Source: an uncultured Sutterella sp. (GTDB taxonomy: Bacteria; Pseudomonadota; Gammaproteobacteria; Burkholderiales; Burkholderiaceae_F). From it: a DNA stretch of 64,000 nucleotides. This document shows, piece by piece, positions 22,524-50,809 of the stretch. The translations under genes and the position numbers were made by a program. The notes beneath the pieces are model-generated. The model was not told the origin of the DNA. It made no database searches and was given only the letters and a program-made list of their open reading frames with translations. Location: assembly GCA_944392755.1 (NCBI GenBank), contig CALXXT010000070.1, forward strand, positions 26,138 through 90,137, read 5' to 3'. Numbering within the stretch: position 1 is the stretch's first letter; each line of letters opens with the position of its first letter.

Positions 22524-23858
22524 ATGTCTACATCTTCTCAGTGGAGCTCGCGCCTCGGATTCATTCTGGCTTCCGCCGGATCGGCCATCGGCCTCGGCGC
22601 GATTTGGAAGTTTCCGTTCTGGGCCGGCGCCAACGGCGGCGCCGCCTTCATCATCCCGTACATCGTCTTCACGTTCACGATCGGCGTCGTGCTGGTCATG
22701 GCGGAAATCGCCATCGGACGCCGCGGCCGCGGCTCGGTGATGAACGCCATGCGCCAGGTGGGCGGCAAGACCTTCGCCGCCCTCGGCGCCTTTGCCGTGC
22801 TCACGAGCTTCATCATCCTTTCCTACTATTCGGTCGTCGGCGGCTGGTGCGTCTCCTATCTGGTCGAGGCGCTTTCGGGCAACGTCGCCGTGGAAAGCGC
22901 CGATGCGCTCAAGGCCCGTTTCGGCGACCTGGTTTCAAACGGCTACACGAACATCGCCTGGCACCTCGTTTTCCTCACGCTCACCTGCGGCACGGTCGTG
23001 CTCGGCGTCGAGAAGGGGATCGAACGTCTTTCGAAGTATCTGATGCCGACGCTCTTCATCCTGATGATCGCGATCATCATCCGCGGGCTGACGCTCGACG
23101 GCTCTTGGGCGGGCGTCCTCTACCTCTTCAACTTCTCCTGGGATTCCGTGACGCCCTCGGCGATCCTGAACGCGATGGGCTTCACCTTCTTCTCGCTCTC
23201 GCTCGGCGCAGGGATTCTCGTCACGTACGGGGCCTATCTGCCGAAGGAAAACAACATTCCGACCTCCTCGATCTGGGTTGCGGTCCTCGCCATCCAGGCG
23301 GCGCTCCTTGCGGGCCTCATGATCATGCCGGCCGTCTTTGCCTTCGGCCTTGAGCCGAACGCCGGTCCGGGACTCGTCTTCATCACGGTTCCGATGATCT
23401 TCTCGCACGTGCCTTTCGGCGCCGTCTTCGCCGTGCTCTTCTACATCTGCCTGCTCGTCGCGGCACTTACGAGCTCGGTTTCGCTCCTTGAAGTGGTGGT
23501 CGCCTTCATGCACAACGAATGGCGCATGAGCCGTCGGGCCGCGACCTTCACGTGCTGGGTGACGCTCTTCTTCCTCGGGGCCGTTTCCGCGCTTTCTTTC
23601 GGCGTCTGGAGCGACTTTACGATCGGCGGCCGCGTCTTCTTCGACTTCCTCGACTACGTCTGCTCGAACTTCATGATGCCGATCGGCGGCCTTGCCGTGG
23701 CGGTCCTCATGGGCTGGAAGGCCTGGCCGGTCATGGCCGAAGAACTGTCCACCGCATGCGCCTACAGCCCCGCCGTCATGAAGACGATCCGAATCGCGAT
23801 CGCCTACCTCGCCCCGATCCTCGTTCTCGTGGCGATTTATCAGGGCGTGTTCGGCTGA
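22524..23858 (+). CDS. Neurotransmitter:sodium symporter (NSS) family amino-acid transporter, copy 1
   Basis: 444 aa with about 11 hydrophobic helices, the common bacterial NSS form. These transporters import amino acids (Trp, Tyr, Leu and similar) with Na+. TM1 carries the hallmark SAIGLGAIWKFPFWAG with the unwound substrate site; the residue aligned with LeuT Asn27 (a Na1 ligand) is Ala26, and LeuT Arg30 is Lys29. Copy 1 differs from its sisters in having FWAGANGGAAF where they have YMAGTNGGS. It is the first of four paralogues on the plus strand and is preceded by AGGA at 7 bp. A terminator follows. Confidence 0.92.
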   Translation: MSTSSQWSSRLGFILASAGSAIGLGAIWKFPFWAGANGGAAFIIPYIVFTFTIGVVLVMAEIAIGRRGRGSVMNAMRQVGGKTFAALGAFAVLTSFIILSYYSVVGGWCVSYLVEALSGNVAVESADALKARFGDLVSNGYTNIAWHLVFLTLTCGTVVLGVEKGIERLSKYLMPTLFILMIAIIIRGLTLDGSWAGVLYLFNFSWDSVTPSAILNAMGFTFFSLSLGAGILVTYGAYLPKENNIPTSSIWVAVLAIQAALLAGLMIMPAVFAFGLEPNAGPGLVFITVPMIFSHVPFGAVFAVLFYICLLVAALTSSVSLLEVVVAFMHNEWRMSRRAATFTCWVTLFFLGAVSALSFGVWSDFTIGGRVFFDFLDYVCSNFMMPIGGLAVAVLMGWKAWPVMAEELSTACAYSPAVMKTIRIAIAYLAPILVLVAIYQGVFG

Positions 23859-23888
23859 TCGAAATCCGTCAGTCACCCTTGAGTCCAT

Positions 23889-23927
23889 GGCCGGCGCTGA
23901 CTGCAGAGAAGTCCCGCCGGCCTTTTT
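23889..23927 (+). terminator. Rho-independent terminator after NSS copy 1
   Basis: GGCCGGCG pairs with CGCCGGCC around a 19-base loop, followed by TTTTTC. It lies 31 bp after the stop, so copies 1 and 2 are probably separate transcripts. Confidence 0.8.
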
Positions 23928-23992
23928 CTTCCGAGGCATCCGGCACGTTTTCCGAATAGCATTGGTAAAAACACCTTCAAGGACCCTTTCTC

Positions 23993-25327
23993 ATGTCGCA
24001 AGAACGCATCACCTGGACCAGCCGAATCGGCTTCGTGCTCGCCAGCGCAGGCGCAGCCGTTGGGCTCGGTGCAATTTGGAAGTTCCCTTACATGGCCGGG
24101 ACGAACGGCGGTTCGGTCTTTCTCTTCCCCTACGTGCTTCTCACCTTCACAGTGGGGCTCGTTCTCCTCATCGCGGAAATCGCCCTCGGCCGCCTCGGCA
24201 AGGGCGGGATCGTCACCACGTACCGAAAGCTTGCGGGATCGTCCTTTCTTCCCGCAGGGTACCTCGGCGTCGTCACGGGCTTTCTCGTCCTCTCCTTCTA
24301 TTCGGCGATCGGCGGATGGACCATTTCCTACTTCTGCGAGGCGCTCGTCGGCCGCGGACTCATCACGGATCAGAGCCTTCTGGGCGCGCACTTCGCCGAA
24401 TTCACGGCCGATCCCGTGATGGCGCTTGGCTTTCAGTGGCTCTTTCTCATTCTGAACGGCCTCATCGTCGCCTTCGACGTGACCAAGGGAATCGAGCGCG
24501 TGAGCAAGATCCTCATGCCGCTTCTCTTCTTTCTCATGCTTGTTCTCATCGTGCGCGGCCTCATGCTTCCCGGAGCGGGCGCGGGCGTGGAGTTTCTCTT
24601 CAAGTTCGCCCCTGAAGCCTTCACCTTCGACGCGCTCCTGCAGGCGATGGGCTTCACCTTCTTTTCGCTTTGCGTCGGGTGCGGCTGCATGATGACGTAC
24701 GGCTCCTACCTCAGCGAAGAGACGAACCTCATCCGCTCCTGCCTTTGGATCGCTTTCCTCGGCGTGCTCGCGTCGATCATGGGCGGGCTCATGATCATGC
24801 CAAGCGTCTTCGCCTTCGGCTTGGATCCGACGGCAGGCCCGGGCCTCACCTTCATCACGATGCCGGCCGTCTTCGCTCAGCTCCCCTTCGGTCAGGTCTT
24901 TGCCGTGATCTTCTACCTCTGCCTCATCGTCGCGGCGATCACCTCCTCCGTCTCGATGATCGAGATTCTCGTCGCGTTCCTCGTCGACGAAAAAGGCTGC
25001 GGCCGTCCGAAGGCGGCGGTCGTCTCCACGATTGCGCTCGCCCTGGTGGGCGCGCTCCCCTGCCTCTCCTTCGGGATCCTCGCGGACGTGAAGCTCGGCG
25101 GAAAGACCTTCTTCGACATCTTCGACTTCTTCACGAGCAACATATCTCTGCCCGTAGGAGGACTCGTCATTCTTTTCCTCGCGGGCTTCAAGTGCTGGCC
25201 GCTCGTCGAACGCTCGCTCTCGCCGACTGGAACGCTCTCGTCGGCCGCAGCGTCGACCCTTAAATTCTTCATGCGCGTCGCGGCGCCCATTTTGGTCGCA
25301 GCCGTACTGCTGAGCGGACTCCTGTAA
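23993..25327 (+). CDS. NSS family amino-acid transporter, copy 2
   Basis: 444 aa with about 11 helices. TM1 reads AAVGLGAIWKFPYMAGTNGG, with Ala27 at the LeuT Asn27 position. The central segment GIERVSKILMPLLFFLMLVLIV is shared almost word for word with copy 3, suggesting these two are the closest pair. The YNVSM-type TM6/TM8 regions are replaced by SLCVGCGCMMTYGSYL and SSVSMIEILVAFLVDE. AAGGA lies 9 bp before the ATG. It is followed by its own terminator and then by the YidC-sulfatase fusion gene. Confidence 0.92.
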   Translation: MSQERITWTSRIGFVLASAGAAVGLGAIWKFPYMAGTNGGSVFLFPYVLLTFTVGLVLLIAEIALGRLGKGGIVTTYRKLAGSSFLPAGYLGVVTGFLVLSFYSAIGGWTISYFCEALVGRGLITDQSLLGAHFAEFTADPVMALGFQWLFLILNGLIVAFDVTKGIERVSKILMPLLFFLMLVLIVRGLMLPGAGAGVEFLFKFAPEAFTFDALLQAMGFTFFSLCVGCGCMMTYGSYLSEETNLIRSCLWIAFLGVLASIMGGLMIMPSVFAFGLDPTAGPGLTFITMPAVFAQLPFGQVFAVIFYLCLIVAAITSSVSMIEILVAFLVDEKGCGRPKAAVVSTIALALVGALPCLSFGILADVKLGGKTFFDIFDFFTSNISLPVGGLVILFLAGFKCWPLVERSLSPTGTLSSAAASTLKFFMRVAAPILVAAVLLSGLL

Positions 25328-25364
25328 AAAGGACGTCTCTGGTAACATTTGACGCCGCATTGAC

Positions 25365-25394
25365 GGCCGCGCGTTATCGTGCGGCCGCCTTTTT
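25365..25394 (+). terminator. Rho-independent terminator after NSS copy 2
   Basis: GGCCGCGCG, TTAT and CGTGCGGCC form a 9-bp stem (one G-T pair), followed by GCCTTTTT. The next ATG is only about 27 bp further on. Confidence 0.75.
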
Positions 25395-25420
25395 ATCGAC
25401 CGCACCCTTTCAGCAGAAGC

Positions 25421-28393
25421 ATGCTTTCCACGCTCTACACGCTTTTCATAGCGCCGCTTGAGCTTTTCATGAGCTCAATCCTCAGCGCCTCGCATTCCTG
25501 GCTTGATTCTTGGGGTTGGGCCATTGTGGCGATGAGCCTCGTCGTCAACACGGTGATCCTTCCCATCTACAACAAAGCGGAAAGCTGGCAGGAAGAGGAA
25601 CGGGCGGTGCGGCGCGGATTCGAAGCGCGGGAAGCGATGATCAAGCGCACCTTCAAGGGCCAAGAGCGCTTCGCAATGCTCTCGACCATGCGTCGGCAAG
25701 CAGGCTTCACGCCGCTTCTGGCCATGCGCTCGAGCGTCGGCTTTCTCCTGCAGATTCCCTTCTTCATCGCCGCCTATCATCTTCTCTCGCATTGGGAGCC
25801 CCTAAAGGGAGTGGCCTTCGGTCCGATCCCGGATCTGGGCGCTGCGGACGGACTTCTCTTCGGACTCAACCTGCTGCCGATTCTCATGACGGTCGTGAAT
25901 CTTCTCTCGGCCTTCATCTACACGGCGAGCCTCACGCGTCAGGACAAGATCCAGCTCTACCTCCTCTCGGCGCTCTTCCTCGTGCTGCTCTACGCGTCGC
26001 CCGCGGCGCTCACGCTCTACTGGACGCTCAACAACGTCTACTCGCTCGGAAAGAACATCGTCGAAAAGTCGCTTCTGCCCGCCTTCGAAGCCCGTCGAGG
26101 AGAGACCTTCGCATCGGCCGCCTACAAGCGCTTCCTCGGGCAAGTCCCAAGCCGCCGAAGCGTCTGGATCCTGATCGCGGCCGCCGTCGTGCTTTTTCTC
26201 GCCGCGGTCGCCATCGGCGCCTGGTGCTGGAAGGGCTGGCGTGGCGCCAGACTGGCGCCTCCGGCTCCACTGCTGCAAGCCTTCCTTCTGCTGCTCTGCT
26301 CGGCCTCGGCGCTCCTCTGGTGGGGAATTCGCGGTTACGCCTTCTCTTCACGCCGCCTCGACCTTCCCGCGCTCGACCTGCTGGGTAGCGCCGTCTCGAT
26401 CTTCGTGGTGCTTTTCGGACTCTTCACCACCTTTGCCGTCGATCTGAGCGGTTGGCGTGCGGTGCTCAACACGCCGCCCGCCGTCGTGAAGATCTACGGC
26501 TGGAGCCTCGTCTGGTCGACGGCGCCAAGCGCGCTCGTTCTCCTTCACCTCGCGCTCGAGAAGCGCCTCCCCGAGAGGGCCGAAAGCTTCGGCCGGCTCT
26601 TCCTCCCCGGCGTCTTCTGCGCCTCGGCGCTCCTCTTCCTCGCGCTCCCGACGCTTGTCCTCGTCTCCGACCCGGGCGCCGTCTCCGCCCCGCTCTCGGA
26701 AGTCTTCGCGTTCGAAGCGCTCGGCGCGGCCGCGGCGCTCCTCGTCGGAGCGCTTCTGCGGTCGCTCTTCCGACCGCGCCTGCGCGGCGTCGTTGCCGTC
26801 GGCCTTCTCACGGCCGTCGTCGCGGCGGTTCTCTACGCCTTCATCTTCGTCGGCGACTACGGCTTCATCATGGACGGCGTTCTGGACAACCCGCCCGTGG
26901 ACAAGGTCGTGCCGAAGGACGCGCTCCTCGACGCGGCGATTCTGGCTGCCCTTCTTGCCGTCGTTCTCTTCATCCTGCTTCGCCGCCGAGCGGACATTGC
27001 CGGGTTCGCGCGCGGCTTCGCCGGGCTCTCCGGCATCTTCTTTGCCGGCGCCTTCGGTGCGGCGGGACTCGCGCCGAGCTTGGTCTCCGAACCCGCCCAG
27101 AACATGCAGGAAGTGCGGTTCGATCCGCCCGAATCCGAGAAGGCGCTCATGAGCTTCTCGAAGGAGAAAAACGTCGTTCACATCGTCTTCGACATGTTCA
27201 CGGGCGACAACTTCCCGGTGATTCTCGAAATGTTCCCGGAATTGAAGCGCTCCTTTGAGGGCTTCGTCTGGTACAAAGACGTCGTCGCGGCCGGCAGCGG
27301 CACGTCCTACGGACTCGCCGCAGCGACGGGCGGCCCCGGATACATTCCGCGCAACGTGAATGCGCGCGCTTCGGAAGGCAAGCGCTTCGACGCGATCTAC
27401 GGCGAGAGCTACGCCGTCGTCCCCAACGCGCTCCCCGACGACTGGAACGTGACGATTTCGGGCACGATCTGGCCGATGGAACTCGCCCTCTTCCGCCGCC
27501 CGCCCGCCGCGATCGAACCCTACGGCCCGCTCGCCCAGGACTGGTTCAACTACTACTACCGCGAAGGTCTTTCCGAAGCGGTCGGCGCAGAATCCGAGAA
27601 CGCCTTCATGCTTCTTTTCTCGATCTCGGCCTTCAAGGCGGCGCCCTATGCCCTCCGCGGCAAGATCTACCGAAGCGGCGCGTGGCTGCTTCCGGAAAGA
27701 ACGTCGACGGACGGCTTCCGCGCCGAAGCGCCCCTGCGCGCGCTCGCCGAGCGAAGCCGCATCGACGAGACCCTCGGCAACGCGTATCGATACTTCTACT
27801 TCGACAGCTCTCACACCGGCATGTACTACGACGTCGAGGGGCGTCCCTCAGGCAAGAAGCCCGTGCCGTCGAGCGCTTGGCTCAAGGCGAATCCCAGCCT
27901 TGACTACGCGCACCTCCTTGCCGAGGCTGCTTCCGTGCGGCGTCTTGCCGAGTGGCTCGACTGGCTGCGCAAGGAAGGCATCTACGACCGCACGCGCATC
28001 GTCGTCACGTCCGACCACGGCGCCTTCGACTCTCCGACGCTGGTCGAAGCCATCGGGCTCGTGCCGCTGCGCGGCCGCGAACCTGAAAAGAAGAACAATA
28101 CGAATCCCGGATTCCGCTACGGAATCCTCATCACGAAGGACTTCAACGCCAAGGGTGAAATCCGCACCGAAGCCGACGCGCTCGCCGCCACCTACGATGC
28201 TCCCGCCTTTGTGCTCGAAGGCATCGCGCCCGTTCCGGACAGCCTCAAGGCCGACATCCGCAATCCGAACCGCGTGCGGCACTACGAGAGCTCCACCGAC
28301 CGGGATCTCGGCAAGTCGGAATTGAAGATCTTCCGCTACGACGTTCGCGGAAGCATGTTCAAGGCGGAAAATTGGACGATCCTCGACCAATAA
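25421..28393 (+). CDS. YidC/Oxa1-like insertase domain fused to a membrane sulfatase/LTA-synthase-like domain
   Basis: 990 aa from the ATG at 25421; a GTG at 25379 lies inside the preceding terminator and is unlikely. Residues about 1-220 match the YidC/Oxa1 core: AIVAMSLVVNTVILPIYNKAE, then LLQIPFFIAAYHLLSHWEPLKG, NLLPILMTVVNLLSAFIY and YWTLNNVYSLGKN. About eight further helices fill residues 250-560. Residues 580-985 form an alkaline-phosphatase-superfamily domain: VHIVFDMF (Asp591), GSGTSYGLAAATGG (candidate nucleophile Thr628) and VVTSDHGAF (Asp865-His866). These match the metal/nucleophile pattern of LTA synthase and EptA-type transferases, which transfer phosphoglycerol or phosphoethanolamine outside the membrane. 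The ribosome site is weak. Role unknown: perhaps envelope modification rather than protein insertion. Confidence 0.85.
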   Translation: MLSTLYTLFIAPLELFMSSILSASHSWLDSWGWAIVAMSLVVNTVILPIYNKAESWQEEERAVRRGFEAREAMIKRTFKGQERFAMLSTMRRQAGFTPLLAMRSSVGFLLQIPFFIAAYHLLSHWEPLKGVAFGPIPDLGAADGLLFGLNLLPILMTVVNLLSAFIYTASLTRQDKIQLYLLSALFLVLLYASPAALTLYWTLNNVYSLGKNIVEKSLLPAFEARRGETFASAAYKRFLGQVPSRRSVWILIAAAVVLFLAAVAIGAWCWKGWRGARLAPPAPLLQAFLLLLCSASALLWWGIRGYAFSSRRLDLPALDLLGSAVSIFVVLFGLFTTFAVDLSGWRAVLNTPPAVVKIYGWSLVWSTAPSALVLLHLALEKRLPERAESFGRLFLPGVFCASALLFLALPTLVLVSDPGAVSAPLSEVFAFEALGAAAALLVGALLRSLFRPRLRGVVAVGLLTAVVAAVLYAFIFVGDYGFIMDGVLDNPPVDKVVPKDALLDAAILAALLAVVLFILLRRRADIAGFARGFAGLSGIFFAGAFGAAGLAPSLVSEPAQNMQEVRFDPPESEKALMSFSKEKNVVHIVFDMFTGDNFPVILEMFPELKRSFEGFVWYKDVVAAGSGTSYGLAAATGGPGYIPRNVNARASEGKRFDAIYGESYAVVPNALPDDWNVTISGTIWPMELALFRRPPAAIEPYGPLAQDWFNYYYREGLSEAVGAESENAFMLLFSISAFKAAPYALRGKIYRSGAWLLPERTSTDGFRAEAPLRALAERSRIDETLGNAYRYFYFDSSHTGMYYDVEGRPSGKKPVPSSAWLKANPSLDYAHLLAEAASVRRLAEWLDWLRKEGIYDRTRIVVTSDHGAFDSPTLVEAIGLVPLRGREPEKKNNTNPGFRYGILITKDFNAKGEIRTEADALAATYDAPAFVLEGIAPVPDSLKADIRNPNRVRHYESSTDRDLGKSELKIFRYDVRGSMFKAENWTILDQ

Positions 28394-28403
28394 GCCTCAC
28401 CCG

Positions 28404-28436
28404 AAAAGCGCGGAAAACCCGATTTTCCGCGCTTTT
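28404..28436 (+). terminator. Rho-independent terminator after the YidC-sulfatase gene
   Basis: AAAAGCGCGGAAAA, loop CCCGA and TTTTCCGCGCTTTT make a perfect 14-bp stem ending in TTTTCT. It abuts the next gene's -10 element. Confidence 0.9.
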
Positions 28437-28437
28437 C

Positions 28438-28443
28438 TATAAT
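28438..28443 (+). promoter_or_regulatory. -10 element for NSS copy 3
   Basis: A perfect TATAAT directly follows the terminator. It places the transcript start near 28450, so the in-frame ATG at 28442 cannot be the translation start. No clear -35 is seen; that position lies within the terminator stem. Confidence 0.5.
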
Positions 28444-28510
28444 GTGCGTTTTTATCTCGCGGCGCCTCTTCCCGAAATCAGGCGCCAAATTCGCCCTCCA
28501 GACGCTTCCC

Positions 28511-29863
28511 ATGCATCAAAACGCTTCGTCGCCGCGCTCGTCGTGGACATCGAGACTCGGTTTCATTCTTGCCGCTGCGGGTTCCGCAGTCGGTCTCGGC
28601 GCCATCTGGAAGTTCCCCTACATGGCCGGCACGAACGGAGGCTCAATCTTTCTGCTTCCCTACATCTTCTTCACGCTCACGATCGGGCTTGCGCTCCTCA
28701 TCGGCGAGATGTGCATGGGACGCCATGCCCGCGGCGGCGCCGGCACGGCTTTCCGCAAGCTCGGCGGCCGCGCTTGGGGCTGGGCAGGACTTCTCTCCGT
28801 GCTGACGGGCGCGCTTGTCCTTGCCTTCTACTCGGTGGTGGGCGGATGGACCGTGCACTACCTCGTTGAGGCGTGCCTCGGCCGAGGCGTCGCCGAAGAC
28901 CCGTCGACAATGCGGTCGGCCTTCGAAGCCTTCGCGGCCGACCCGGTTTCTTCAATCGGATGCCATGCGGCATTCCTCACGGCGACGGCGGCGGTCGTGC
29001 TCTGCGGCGTTGAGAAGGGCATCGAGCGCGTGAGCAAAATCCTCATGCCCCTTCTCTTCATCCTGATGCTTGTTCTCATCGTGCGCGGGCTCTCGCTTCC
29101 GGGAGCCTTCGAAGGTCTGCGGTTCCTCTTCAAGCCCGATCCCTCGGCCTTCACGGGCGAAGCGCTTCTGAACGCCATGGGATTCGCCTTTTTCTCGCTC
29201 TCGGTCGGCTCGGGCTCGATGATGAACTACGGCAGCTACCTCGGCGAAGAAGCGAAGATCGGCTCCTCGACCACCTGGATCGTTCTGCTCGCGATTCTCG
29301 CCTCGATCCTGGGCGGCCTCATGATCATGCCGGCCGTCTTCGCCTTCGGACTCTCTCCCGATGCGGGTCCGGGCCTCACCTTCGCCACGATGCCCGCCGT
29401 CTTCGCCAAGCTCCCCTTCGGCCATCTCTTTGCCGTCGCCTTCTATGCGTGCCTCTTCGTGGCCGCGATTACGAGCTCGATCTCGATCCTGGAAATGTCG
29501 ACGCAGTACTTCGTCGACGAGCACGGCGTTTCGAAGCGCACCGCCGTCGTCGGCGTTTCGACCGTCCTCGGTCTGCTCGGCATTCTCAGCGCGCTCTCCT
29601 TCGGACCGCTTGCCGACGTGAAGATTTTCGGGCGGACCTTCTTCGACCTCTTCGACGGCTTCACCTCCAACATCGGCATGCCGATCGGATGCCTGAGCAT
29701 CGCCCTCGTGGCGGGCGGCGTCGCCTGGAGCGCAACCCGCGGCGAACTTGCCAAATCGGGCGGATGGACGCAAGGCGCCCTCAAGGCCTTCCGCTTCGTG
29801 CTTCTCGTCCTGGGGCCGATCGTCATCCTTGCCGTCGCCGGCAAGGCGCTCGGACTCTACTGA
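28511..29863 (+). CDS. NSS family amino-acid transporter, copy 3
   Basis: 450 aa from the ATG at 28511, chosen because the upstream in-frame ATG (28442) overlaps the -10 element. TM1 reads SAVGLGAIWKFPYMAGTNGG (Ala31 at the LeuT Asn27 position). The central segment GIERVSKILMPLLFILMLVLIV is shared with copy 2, and GSGSMMNYGSYLGEEAKIGSS replaces the equivalent loop. About 11 helices; Na+-coupled amino-acid uptake is inferred from the family. No strong ribosome site is visible. Copy 4 follows after 124 bp with only a weak hairpin between. Confidence 0.91.
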   Translation: MHQNASSPRSSWTSRLGFILAAAGSAVGLGAIWKFPYMAGTNGGSIFLLPYIFFTLTIGLALLIGEMCMGRHARGGAGTAFRKLGGRAWGWAGLLSVLTGALVLAFYSVVGGWTVHYLVEACLGRGVAEDPSTMRSAFEAFAADPVSSIGCHAAFLTATAAVVLCGVEKGIERVSKILMPLLFILMLVLIVRGLSLPGAFEGLRFLFKPDPSAFTGEALLNAMGFAFFSLSVGSGSMMNYGSYLGEEAKIGSSTTWIVLLAILASILGGLMIMPAVFAFGLSPDAGPGLTFATMPAVFAKLPFGHLFAVAFYACLFVAAITSSISILEMSTQYFVDEHGVSKRTAVVGVSTVLGLLGILSALSFGPLADVKIFGRTFFDLFDGFTSNIGMPIGCLSIALVAGGVAWSATRGELAKSGGWTQGALKAFRFVLLVLGPIVILAVAGKALGLY

Positions 29864-29987
29864 CTCCTACCGAGGCAGCCGTATTCGAGCGCCTTGTAAA
29901 CTAAATACCTGCGTCGCTCTTTACTGAACGACGAAGATCCCGGGCCCGACGCGGCCCTTCCCTCTTTTTCCCGGAAATGCTCTCAAT

Positions 29988-31325
29988 ATGACGGACAAAG
30001 CAAATTCTGGCGGCTGGGGCTCTCGCCTCGGCTTCATTCTGGCAAGCGCCGGTTCGGCTGTGGGTCTCGGAGCCATCTGGAAGTTTCCGTACATGGCGGG
30101 AACGAACGGCGGCTCCGTCTTCATGCTCCCCTACATCTTCTTCACGCTCACGGTGGGCGTGGCGCTTCTGATCGCTGAATTTGCCATGGGCCGTGCGGGC
30201 CGGCGCGGCGCCGTGGGCAGCCTCAACGCCGTTTGCGGCCGCCCCTGGGGAATTTTCGGCGGAATCGGCGTCTTCACGGTCTTCCTCATCCTCTCCTTCT
30301 ATTCGATCGTGGGCGGCTGGTGCCTCAAGTACACCTGGGACGCTGTCACGGGCGTCGGACTCATCTCGGACGCCGAACAACTGAGCGCGCACTTCGGCGG
30401 CTTCGTTTCCGACACGGTCTCCTCCTACGGCTTCCTTTTCGCCTTCCTGCTCCTGACGATGCTCATCGTTCTGCGCGGCGTGCAGGCCGGCATCGAAAAG
30501 CTTTCGAAGGTGCTGATGCCGATGCTCTTCATCCTGATGATCATTCTCATCATCCGCGGCGTGACGCTGCCGAACGGCTGGGCAGGCGTCGAATTTCTCT
30601 TCACGCCGCGCTGGGAAGACTTCAACGCCTCGGCCCTCTTCAATGCGATGGGCTTCTGCTTCTTCTCGCTTTCGCTCGGCGCGGGCACGATGATCACCTA
30701 CGGTTCCTATCTTGATCCGAAGGCCGATCTTCCCTCGTCGGTCGGCTGGGTTGCCTTCCTCGGAATCCTCTCTTCGATCCTGGGCGGCCTCATGGTGATG
30801 CCCGCGGTCTTCGCCTTCCATCTCGATCCTACGGCCGGCCCCGGCCTCACCTTCGTAACGATGCCCGCGATCTTCTCGCAGATGCCCATGGGACAGCTCT
30901 TCGCCGTCTTCTTCTACATCTGCCTCACGGTGGCCGCCATCACGTCGTCCGTGTCGATGCTTGAGGCCTGCACGGTGCTCCTCTCGACCGAAACGGGCGT
31001 CTCGCGCCGCACCGGCATCCTGATCACGGTGGCGGGCGCGGCCGTGGTCGGGTTCCTCGCGAACCTCTCCTTCGGTCCGTGGGCCGACGTCAAGTTCTTC
31101 GGCAAAAACCTCTTCGACCTGCTCGACTACGTCACCTCGAACGTCGGCATGCCGCTCTCGACCTTCGGCATCTCGATTGCCGCCGCATGGGTCGCCTGGC
31201 CCGTGACGGCTCGCGAACTCCAGAGCGCACGCACGCTTTCGCCCTCGGCCCTGCGCACGGCGCGCATCATGATCGGCTTCCTCTCGCCCGTCTTCGTCGC
31301 CATCGTGGCGGCGGGAAGCCTCTGA
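29988..31325 (+). CDS. NSS family amino-acid transporter, copy 4
   Basis: 445 aa, about 11 helices. TM1 reads SAVGLGAIWKFPYMAGTNGG (Ala29 at the LeuT Asn27 position). Its central segment GIEKLSKVLMPMLFILMIILII is closer to copy 1 (GIERLSKYLMPTLFILMIAIII) than to copies 2 and 3, so the array may have arisen by duplication of a pair; this is inference from short segments. Substrate unknown; family members carry aromatic or aliphatic amino acids with Na+. A strong terminator follows. Confidence 0.92.
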   Translation: MTDKANSGGWGSRLGFILASAGSAVGLGAIWKFPYMAGTNGGSVFMLPYIFFTLTVGVALLIAEFAMGRAGRRGAVGSLNAVCGRPWGIFGGIGVFTVFLILSFYSIVGGWCLKYTWDAVTGVGLISDAEQLSAHFGGFVSDTVSSYGFLFAFLLLTMLIVLRGVQAGIEKLSKVLMPMLFILMIILIIRGVTLPNGWAGVEFLFTPRWEDFNASALFNAMGFCFFSLSLGAGTMITYGSYLDPKADLPSSVGWVAFLGILSSILGGLMVMPAVFAFHLDPTAGPGLTFVTMPAIFSQMPMGQLFAVFFYICLTVAAITSSVSMLEACTVLLSTETGVSRRTGILITVAGAAVVGFLANLSFGPWADVKFFGKNLFDLLDYVTSNVGMPLSTFGISIAAAWVAWPVTARELQSARTLSPSALRTARIMIGFLSPVFVAIVAAGSL

Positions 31326-49279: not shown

Positions 49280-50809
49280 TCAGCTTGAGGCCGGCGTGAT
49301 CTTCACGCTCGCAATGCGGTTTCGCACGACTGCCGCCGCTTCAAACCGCCAGCCCGAGACCACGATCGATTCGCCCGCTTCGGGAAGTCGACCGAAGCGC
49401 TCGAGCAGAAGACCGGCGACCGTCACGTAGTCGGCATCCTCCTCCATGAGGCCGTCGATGCCGAGCGTCTGCTCGATCAGCATGAGGTCGGCGGTGCCGT
49501 CGGCGAGCCACCCGCCCTCGATCTTCTTCACCATGTCGCGGTCGCCTTCATCGGGAAAATCACCCGCAATCGCCTCAAGAATGTCATGCGAGGTGGCCAG
49601 TCCTTGAACAACGCCGAATTCATCGGCGACGATCACAACGGAGGCGCGCGTGCGCTTGACGTCCCGCACCAGGCGGATGACGCTGATCGTCTCGGGCACG
49701 GTCAGCGGCTGACGAGCGGCGGCAAGCCGTCGAATCGATTCGACGTCCTTCGGGCCGTTGATCAGCTCCTTCGCCTTCACGAGCCCCACCATGTGATCGA
49801 GCGAACCGTCGCAGACGGGGAAAATGCTGTGCGAAAGGGAACGCGCGTCGGAAATAATCTCATCGATCGGCTTTCTCAGATTCAGCCAGCCGATCTCGGA
49901 GCGCGGCGTCATGACCGTGCGGATCGAACGTTCGGCGAGCGTCAGCACGCCTTCGACCATGCGCTGCTCGTCAAGCGAGAAGACTTCCGACTGGGGCGCA
50001 AGCGCCTCCGCCTCCGTGCGCGGTTCCGAACGCTGCGGACTCATGAGCTTCACGATCGCGAGCGTCGTCCGCGCGCGGAAGGGCATCTTTGCCAAGCGCT
50101 GATTCGTGCGGCGGCTTGCCGTCTGGTTGAAGGCCTCGATCAGAACGGAGAAAGCGATGGCCGCGTAGAGGTATCCCTTCGGAATATGCAGGCCGAATCC
50201 CTCGGCGACGAGGCTGAATCCGATCATGAGCAGGAATGCTAGGCAAAGCACGATCACCGTCGGGTGACGGTTGACGAAGCTCGTGAGGGGACGGCTCGCC
50301 GCCATCATCACGATCATGGCGACGACGACCGCGGCCATCATGACGGCAAGCTCGTCAACCATGCCGACCGCCGTAATGATCGAGTCGATCGAGAAGACGG
50401 CGTCGACGAGCAGAATCTGCGTGATGACAACCCAGAAGCCCGCGGACGTGCGCTTTTCGACCTCCGCGGCAGAGTGAGACTCGAGCCGCTCGTGAAGCTC
50501 GAGCGTCGCCTTGAAGATCAGAAAGAGGCCGCCCGCAATGAGAATGAGATCCCGCGCGGAGATCGGGCGCCCGAGAACTTCAAAGAGTGGCGTCGTGAGC
50601 GAAATGAGCCACGACATGATGCTCAAAAGCCCGAGACGCATCAAAAGCGCAAGACCGAGGCCCGTGTAGAGCGCGCGGTCCTGCTGGGCGGGTGGAAGTT
50701 TTTTCGCCAGGATGGCGATGAAGACGAGATTGTCGATTCCCAGAACGATTTCGAGAACGACGAGCGTAAGAAGACCGGCCCATATCGCCGGATCAAGCAG
50801 GATGTCCAT
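49280..50809 (-). CDS. TerC-family membrane protein with CBS and CorC/HlyC domains (YegH/YoaE type)
   Basis: 509 aa from the ATG at 50809, similar in length to E. coli YegH and YoaE; the longer open frame upstream lacks family sequence. About seven helices form the TerC domain ([20 protein letters not shown] and [17 protein letters not shown] with the paired acidic residues). Two CBS domains follow ([13 protein letters not shown] onward), then a CorC_HlyC domain ([25 protein letters not shown]). Members are linked to metal-ion homeostasis, recently Mn2+ export for TerC, but this class is not biochemically defined. No clear ribosome site is visible. Confidence 0.87.

Follow-up and report, generated by a model that had tools for sequence, protein, structure and literature searches.

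A gene in which a YidC-like membrane core is joined to a predicted phospho-transferase domain is present in the DNA of an uncultured Sutterella sp. and is conserved in related genomes. A literature search found no YidC-core/phospho-transferase fusion of this kind. The window, which is the whole stretch of 64,000 nucleotides that was analysed, contains the gene together with the following features:

23993..25327, + strand: SNF-type sodium symporter, upstream neighbour
25421..28393, + strand: gene for the YidC-like/phospho-transferase fusion (990 aa), an orphan paralogue
25421..26062, + strand: YidC/Oxa1-like core, residues 1-214, based on PF02096 (E=4.6e-19), conservation and Foldseek
25547..25549, + strand: Asn43 codon, aligned with the groove arginine R366 of E. 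coli YidC
26063..27100, + strand: linker plus another eight or nine membrane helices (residues 215-560), with no family match above cut-off
27143..28240, + strand: alkaline-phosphatase-superfamily (sulfatase/LtaS/OpgB-like) domain, residues ~575-940
27191..27193, + strand: Asp591 codon (pairs with Glu170 of E. coli OpgB in the alignment; predicted metal ligand)
27302..27304, + strand: Thr628 codon (pairs with Thr211 of OpgB; predicted nucleophile)
27812..27814, + strand: His798 codon (pairs with His336 of OpgB; predicted active-site histidine)
28013..28018, + strand: Asp865-His866 codons (pair with Asp394-His395 of OpgB; predicted metal ligands)
28442..29863, + strand: SNF-type sodium symporter, downstream neighbour

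The frame runs from the ATG at 25421 to the stop at 28393 and comprises 990 codons with no internal stops. An alternative upstream start, the GTG at 25379, would give a protein of 1004 aa. All ten fusion copies have a Met where the window has its ATG at 25421, and in two of the loci (L087 and L102) this Met was taken as the start with a longer frame available. An earlier note had described a YidC core, about eight helices and an alkaline-phosphatase-superfamily domain within one 990-residue frame, and each of these parts has been borne out. An annotation, assembly or frameshift artefact might be suspected in a fragmented metagenome assembly of 96 contigs; the chance of this is negligible, and it was ruled out by the same uninterrupted fusion, with a conserved junction, in nine genomes from three genera.

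The genome of the window also contains a second copy of the fusion, which adjoins a tagF-like gene (contigs C82 and C3), and no TagD-like or TagF-like neighbour of the window copy was found at its own locus. The functions of both flanking symporters are probably unrelated to the fusion. As an extra paralogue in which all catalytic residues have been kept, the window copy is probably active, perhaps on a different acceptor.

The YidC-like core

The core of the window protein is matched by PF02096 (60KD_IMP) at E=4.6e-19 over residues 31-214, scoring 69.4 bits where the cut-off is 35. This cut-off was passed by all nine complete fusions scanned and also by the G000 paralogue. For TIGR03592, the NCBIfam model of the YidC C-terminal domain (cut-off 84.3), scores of 70.4 bits for the window protein, 86.4 for G019 and 85.3 for G072 were obtained, and the canonical YidC of G010 reached 226.4 bits. 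Structure modelling of the window protein gave a mean pLDDT of 74-95 for all but one of the initial 22 ten-residue blocks, and of 62 for that one. A Foldseek search with the model returned YidC for matches 1-8, with a TM-score of 0.72 by target length for the YidC of B. halodurans; this result is partly circular, since the input alignment of the model itself contained YidC sequences.

In addition to family and fold (~21-27% identity), the core shares with the YidC/Oxa1/Alb3 insertases (PF02096) two features in the last helix, the Tyr-Trp and the Asn positions. It differs from them in that it forms a separate clade (support 1.0) and is joined to helices and an enzyme. The large periplasmic domain, which the earlier note had also reported missing, does not precede the core in the window protein. 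The Gly-Gly-Cys-Leu-Pro stretch of canonical YidC has been replaced, and the positive residue of the groove (R366 in E. coli) has given way to Asn in all ten fusions, whereas Arg (50) or Lys (29) is found in all 79 canonical YidCs compared, many of which are closely related to one another. In the cytoplasmic loop, the acidic residues E54, E58 and E60 are newly invariant, being present in 10/10 fusions and in 0/76 canonical YidCs. Trp201 of the fusion occupies the column of E. coli Y517. In E. coli YidC, the groove arginine can be dispensable with an aromatic or polar residue 517, and in Streptococcus mutans YidC2, which has Trp in this column, the arginine is still required (PMC8920935).

The core is the most strongly conserved part of the protein. 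The fusions have 144 invariant positions in common, 102 of them within residues 1-214, and the mean pairwise identity of the nine complete fusions is 73% in the core versus 35% and 42% in the other two parts. Between the same species, the identity is 77% for the true YidC core versus 63% for the fusion core.

A separate, ordinary YidC is also present in four of the nine genomes that hold the fusion (G001, G010, G019 and G033), and the search in the other five gave no clear result. The check for a normal yidC that the earlier note had proposed was answered in G010, of the same genus as the window, where the gene is located between dnaA and mnmE; the arrangement in G001 looks similar. Neither canonical yidC nor mnmE was found in the window's own assembly of 96 contigs, in which only weaker matches to other GTPases were seen. 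The absence of yidC is probably an assembly gap, since mnmE, its neighbour in G010, is likewise missing.

The membrane helices and the enzyme domain

After the core, a 19-residue hydropathy scan of five fusions counted nine helices in G010 and G072 and eight in the other three (G019, G073 and the window protein). In the model of the window protein, the stretch from 245 to 547 holds nine helices at least 20 residues long, with low confidence for the later ones. Nine helices, an odd number, would place the enzyme domain in the periplasm; eight, if real (the scan count in three of the five fusions), would reverse the topology.

The enzyme domain of the window protein reached 12.6 bits with Sulfatase and 15 with Phosphodiest, below the respective cut-offs of 25 and 23, and the Sulfatase cut-off was passed by one of the ten fusion sequences scanned (G073, 27.3 bits, profile 1-244). 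The positions Asp591, Thr628 and Asp865-His866, which had been singled out earlier, are all invariant across the fusions, as is His798. The catalytic roles of these five residues are those that we take them to have in the superfamily. Of three E. coli superfamily enzymes compared, the domain resembles OpgB, with which these residues could be aligned in a profile comparison, and not EptA or OpgE, with which no real alignment was obtained. OpgB was the best of ten profile comparisons, at weak values (E=0.012, probability 1.7%). The equivalog models for OpgB (NF003000, NF009027) and LtaS (NF053595) gave no match at E<=1 for the window protein, E<=0.1 for G019 and E<=0.01 for G072. A single-sequence model of the domain, made without relatives, had a mean pLDDT of 31.8 and gave no structural confirmation of the fold.

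The fusion is similar to OpgB/MdoB phosphoglycerol transferase I and LtaS (PF00884) in its membrane anchoring and, as aligned with OpgB, in its metal, nucleophile and histidine positions. It differs from both in its N-terminal YidC core and the missing equivalog match, from OpgB in that the DUF7024 end of the latter is unmatched, and from LtaS, which has about five membrane helices, in having eight or nine. Distant proteins with the enzyme domain and without the YidC core are found in G095 and G203 (703 and 568 aa). Taken alone, the assignment of periplasmic phospho-transfer to this domain is likely.

Partner genes and distribution

The fusion is found in nine of 67 genomes of the host's family, as ten copies in three genera. 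Genes for a TagD-like (E<=1e-15) and a TagF-like (E<=1e-10) protein were each matched in the same nine genomes as the fusion (E<=1e-10), and the remaining 58 gave no match to any of the three; the nine holders belong to related genera and are not independent, and some of the 58 are incomplete. In all nine holders, the TagF-like gene is located directly upstream of one fusion copy, overlapping it or at most eight bases away, and the co-occurrence also holds where the TagD-like gene is located elsewhere in the genome (G001, G010).

Outside the family sample, the fusion was found in five of 399 genomes of the order, all of the host's family, and in the phylum sample of 398 genomes, queried by the enzyme part and by the YidC part, the window's own genome alone was matched. 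At most two candidates per genome were scored in the order sample and in the enzyme-part phylum sample, and the non-matching genomes listed for the phylum samples were all of the host's order. In another sample of the order (250 genomes), strong TagF-like matches (E<=1e-200) were found in four genomes, every one a fusion holder, and weak partial matches (E 1e-18 to 1e-20) in three genomes of another family. The 49 loci from a scan of named genomes are all ordinary YidC, as judged from frame length and match position; the scan used six peptide words, none of which is present in the other fusions, and says nothing on absence. No fusion was found on plasmids, and no relative on viral contigs.

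The TagF-like protein passed the PF04464 cut-off of 22.1 in all three cases tested (25.3, 25.8 and 23.8 bits), and its profile had no meaningful match among solved structures. The TagD-like protein was above the PF01467 cut-off in both cases tested and is about equally close to ethanolamine-phosphate enzymes. Both belong to the families of the teichoic-acid TagD/TagF pathway and of the TagF-like capsule polymerases that exist in Gram-negative bacteria, but the TagD-like protein is below the TIGR01518 cut-off of 165.4 (67.4 and 67.1 bits) and the TagF-like protein begins with a hydrophobic stretch, as read by eye. No exporter or polymer genes were recognised beside the TagF-like gene by eye and in partial family scans. 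In six of the nine holders, a 2-aminoethylphosphonate-type ABC importer adjoins the TagD-like gene. Its subunits are best matched by TIGR03261/03262/03265, all below cut-off (five binding proteins at 289-304 versus 393 bits), and in the window's own genome the best match in a search for this importer was 99 bits.

A possible relay and its alternatives

The fusion may act as the final enzyme in an envelope-decoration pathway of three genes that includes lipid handling by the YidC part, a reading that we hold tentatively and at somewhat less than an even chance. To judge from its family, the TagD-like cytidylyltransferase would form a CDP-linked alcohol or phosphonate, and the TagF-like transferase would put the phospho-group on a lipid or lipid-linked acceptor at the cytosolic side. 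The YidC-like domain, whose fold has a hydrophilic groove that faces lipid, could then move the product over the inner membrane as a scramblase or flippase. In the periplasm, the OpgB/LtaS-like domain would hand the phospho-group to an acceptor, with T628 as the nucleophile and D591, D865 and H866 as metal holders. Candidate groups are glycerol phosphate, ethanolamine phosphate, choline phosphate or a phosphonate.

More doubtful is that the insertase fold has become a dedicated lipid flippase that supplies a lipid with an unusual CDP-derived head group to the fused enzyme, with flipping and transfer in one polypeptide. In view of the importer beside the TagD-like gene, the head group would possibly be a phosphonate taken up from outside, such as 2-aminoethylphosphonate; as a substrate, this compound is only suggestive. 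With OpgB and EptA-type enzymes drawing on ordinary phospholipids as donors, the pathway could in principle do without a dedicated flippase. The bifunctional synthase/flippase MprF resembles the proposed protein in coupling lipid head-group chemistry with flipping, but the folds are unrelated and the logic is reversed, with the enzyme domain of the fusion outside. Lipid scrambling in liposomes has been described for purified E. coli YidC, in a preprint (PMC10491306). The suggestion in the earlier note that a lipid-linked substrate, and not protein insertion, is the business of the YidC part is strengthened by the loss of the groove residue, the conservation of the core and the co-occurrence with the partner genes, and is weakened by the dispensable arginine of E. 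coli YidC with an aromatic residue 517, where the fusion has Trp.

The enzyme domain could instead be an ordinary periplasmic phosphoglycerol/phosphoethanolamine transferase with phospholipid donors, and the core a mere scaffold or docking platform for a TagF-like partner or an acceptor carrier. This is rather unlikely, although the full catalytic set is present, a tagF-like gene is adjacent and E54, E58 and E60 could form a docking surface; a bare anchor would not need a core with 102 of 214 residues invariant, and the relatives in G095 and G203 do without it. Retention of family and fold, and a Trp where an aromatic residue frees E. coli YidC from its arginine, are what would be expected of a core that is still an insertase or chaperone, dedicated to the fused helices or a partner enzyme. 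That role is improbable in view of the lost positive groove residue, the replaced Gly-Gly-Cys-Leu-Pro stretch, the ordinary YidC in four holders and the arginine requirement of S. mutans YidC2 despite its Trp (PMC8920935). Membrane proteins of the alkaline phosphatase superfamily can also be regulatory, as in YejM/PbgA, but a non-transferase regulator or sensor of the envelope lipid state is very unlikely here, with every catalytic position invariant, the nucleophile included, and with co-occurring biosynthetic genes.

Insertases of the Oxa1 superfamily can scramble lipids in vitro, and we know of no lineage in which this is their job. A natural, conserved fusion that has lost the hallmark residue, has fixed partner genes and couples the core with a phospho-transferase of a lipid-dependent type provides a test case for a lipid role of the insertase core. 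It also serves as a warning for annotation, in that extra 'YidC' genes are not always insertases. If the relay is true, it would add a phospho-decoration pathway to the bacterial family of the host.

Architecture of the fusion protein

The earlier note described one frame joining a YidC/Oxa1-like core, extra membrane helices and an enzyme domain of the alkaline phosphatase superfamily, and this description was upheld.

25421-28393, forward strand: fusion gene, a single stop-free frame of 990 residues

The core is recognized by the 60KD_IMP profile (residues 31-214, E=4.6e-19). Its match to TIGR03592, the NCBIfam model of the YidC C-terminal, lies under the model cut-off in the window copy (E=2e-19), and the cut-off is just exceeded by the orthologues of genomes G019 and G072. 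Residues 215-560 form eight or nine hydrophobic helices, and family profile scans of this region of the window protein returned no family above cut-off. The C-terminal domain of the window copy is too divergent for Pfam (Sulfatase, 12.6 bits versus a cut-off of 25); eight further fusion copies also miss this cut-off, and the G073 orthologue passes it with 27.3 bits. In line with the statement that no characterized protein has this combination, full-text searches of open-access literature, which takes in few subscription journals, brought up no paper describing such a fusion in its title or abstract opening.

Across ten fusion copies, 144 positions are invariant, including D591, T628, H798, D865 and H866 (codons checked). 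The ten fusion enzyme domains and two relatives lacking the YidC core were combined in a profile, which was set against ten proteins: three superfamily enzymes from E. coli and seven that are unrelated. The best of these ten comparisons was OpgB (E=0.012), in which the five residues align on E170, T211, H336, D394 and H395; Asp591, Thr628 and Asp865-His866, singled out earlier, are among them. EptA and OpgE gave no alignment with the profile. The weak OpgB match, the Pfam match of G073 and the conserved residues are, taken together, enough to call the domain a putative phospho-group transferase or hydrolase of the alkaline phosphatase superfamily. The window's own genome contains two ordinary genes of this superfamily. 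Two further families of the order have proteins related to the enzyme domain but lacking a YidC core, and a similar methyltransferase-like gene (read by eye) adjoins each of the two genes.

L082, 8392-10041: ordinary alkaline-phosphatase-superfamily gene
G000:C87:2014-2880: ordinary alkaline-phosphatase-superfamily gene
L108, 2373-4484, reverse strand: enzyme-domain relative
L109, 5251-6957, forward strand: enzyme-domain relative

In known YidC proteins, the C-terminal end of the core is cytoplasmic; therefore, nine helices would put the enzyme in the periplasm and eight would not. In Bacillus subtilis, LtaS is among the exported enzymes metalated by TerC. The gene at 49280-50809 (reverse strand) belongs to the TerC family and also encodes CBS and CorC_HlyC domains. 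TerC proteins are described as metalating exported enzymes in Bacillus subtilis (PMC10550928), and a link between this gene and the predicted metal site of the fusion is possible.

Divergence and conservation of the YidC-like core

Alignment to E. coli YidC pairs N43 with R366 and W201 with Y517 (indices 372 and 523 in an alignment frame with six extra residues). The R366 column holds arginine 50 times and lysine 29 times in 79 canonical YidCs (49 loci of a named-genome scan, 27 relatives' loci, two further family genomes and E. coli), which include many close relatives (Akkermansia) and hence fewer independent cases than 79; all ten fusions have asparagine, and the groove charge is lost. The canonical Gly-Gly-Cys-Leu-Pro stretch is replaced in the fusions, and glutamates at 54, 58 and 60 occur in 10/10 fusions versus 0/76 canonical sequences.

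Among the nine complete fusions the core has a mean pairwise identity of 73%, compared with 35% in the helical region and 42% in the enzyme domain. Judged by this highest identity of the three parts, the core is not vestigial. Between G010 and G019/G033, fusion core identity is 63-64%, below the 77% of the true YidC cores, and in a tree the fusion cores form a single clade (support 1.0) on a long branch. A YidC fold of the N-terminal part is supported by a mostly confident model of residues 1-220, whose best structural matches are solved YidC structures, with the caveat that its underlying alignment contained YidC sequences.

Distribution and partner genes

The fusion was observed in 9 of 67 family genomes, from three genera that each mix holders and non-holders.

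Genus g1: 3/12 genomes (G000 with two copies, G001, G010)
Genus g9: 2/9 genomes (G019, G033)
Genus g16: 4/10 genomes (G072, G073, G074, G075)

Nine of the ten copies are complete, each a single frame in which the core comes first. The tenth, the second fusion of the window's own genome (G000; a fragmented 1.74 Mb metagenome assembly, 89.8% complete), is split between contigs C82 and C3 at their ends; the two contigs have 127 overlapping bases in exact agreement. Judged by how solved FabI and citrate synthase chains rank against this genome, it belongs to a betaproteobacterium that is probably Sutterella-like. No fusion was found outside the family in an order sample (399 genomes) or a phylum sample (398), where at most two candidates per genome were scored in the order search and one phylum search, and the genomes listed without a match in the phylum samples all belonged to the same order. 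The earlier note had proposed examining this distribution and looking for a separate normal yidC. In a first set, 56 of 61 genomes had a YidC-type match and five had none; five of the 56 are fusion holders, and 51 have a single match each (frames of 541-738 codons). A canonical YidC accompanies the fusion in G001, G010, G019 and G033, the holders in which co-presence was established.

A TagF-like transferase gene (PF04464) lies immediately upstream of a fusion in 9/9 genomes, overlapping it or within 8 bases. A TagD-like cytidylyltransferase gene (PF01467) is near the fusion in seven genomes and at other sites in G001 and G010. Queried with the TagD-like protein at E<=1e-15, and with a TagF-like profile at E<=1e-10, the 67 genomes gave matches in exactly the nine fusion holders each time. 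An accidental fit of one gene to those nine would have a chance of about 2 in 1e11 if the genomes were independent, and the real surprise is smaller because the genomes are related, but each of the three genera includes both holders and non-holders, and the genes lie apart in G001 and G010. Among 250 order genomes, four gave strong TagF-like matches, namely the fusion holders, and three genomes of another family give weak partial matches. ABC importer genes closest to 2-aminoethylphosphonate systems, all under family cut-offs, accompany the TagD-like gene in 6/9 genomes (tested on the binding protein in G019, G033, G072, G074 and G001, and on the permease and ATPase in G010).

The window copy lacks TagD-like, TagF-like and importer company. 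It is flanked by sodium symporter genes, standing in the middle of four tandem same-strand genes of the SNF type (22524-31325). G001 and G010, where the genes are not neighbours, have retained the TagD-like and ABC genes apart from the TagF-like/fusion pair, and in G000 as in G010 the TagD-like gene has a fabI-like gene at a distance of about 4 kb. This suggests one ancestral cluster that was later broken up.

A possible lipid relay

The proposed role of the YidC-like part in handling a lipid substrate was partly supported: the lost groove charge, the conserved core and the co-occurring partners are consistent with it, and lipid passage itself stays hypothetical. Such passage is supported by the lipid scrambling reported for purified E. 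coli YidC (PMC10491306). Against such passage, Asn43 is no proof of lost insertase function, since the arginine of E. coli YidC is described as dispensable if residue 517 is aromatic or polar; Streptococcus mutans YidC2 has Trp at that position, yet its arginine is essential (both PMC8920935). The TagD-like protein is about equally close to ethanolamine-phosphate and glycerol-phosphate cytidylyltransferases, with further matches to choline-phosphate enzymes and a chain named phosphoenolpyruvate phosphomutase, leaving several candidate groups for transfer.

From the protein families, a group would be activated with CDP and transferred onto a lipid in the cytosol; the lipid may then cross the membrane along the YidC-like groove, and the enzyme domain, again judged by its family, would carry out a periplasmic transfer. 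Such a relay is the favoured account of how the fusion and its partners work.
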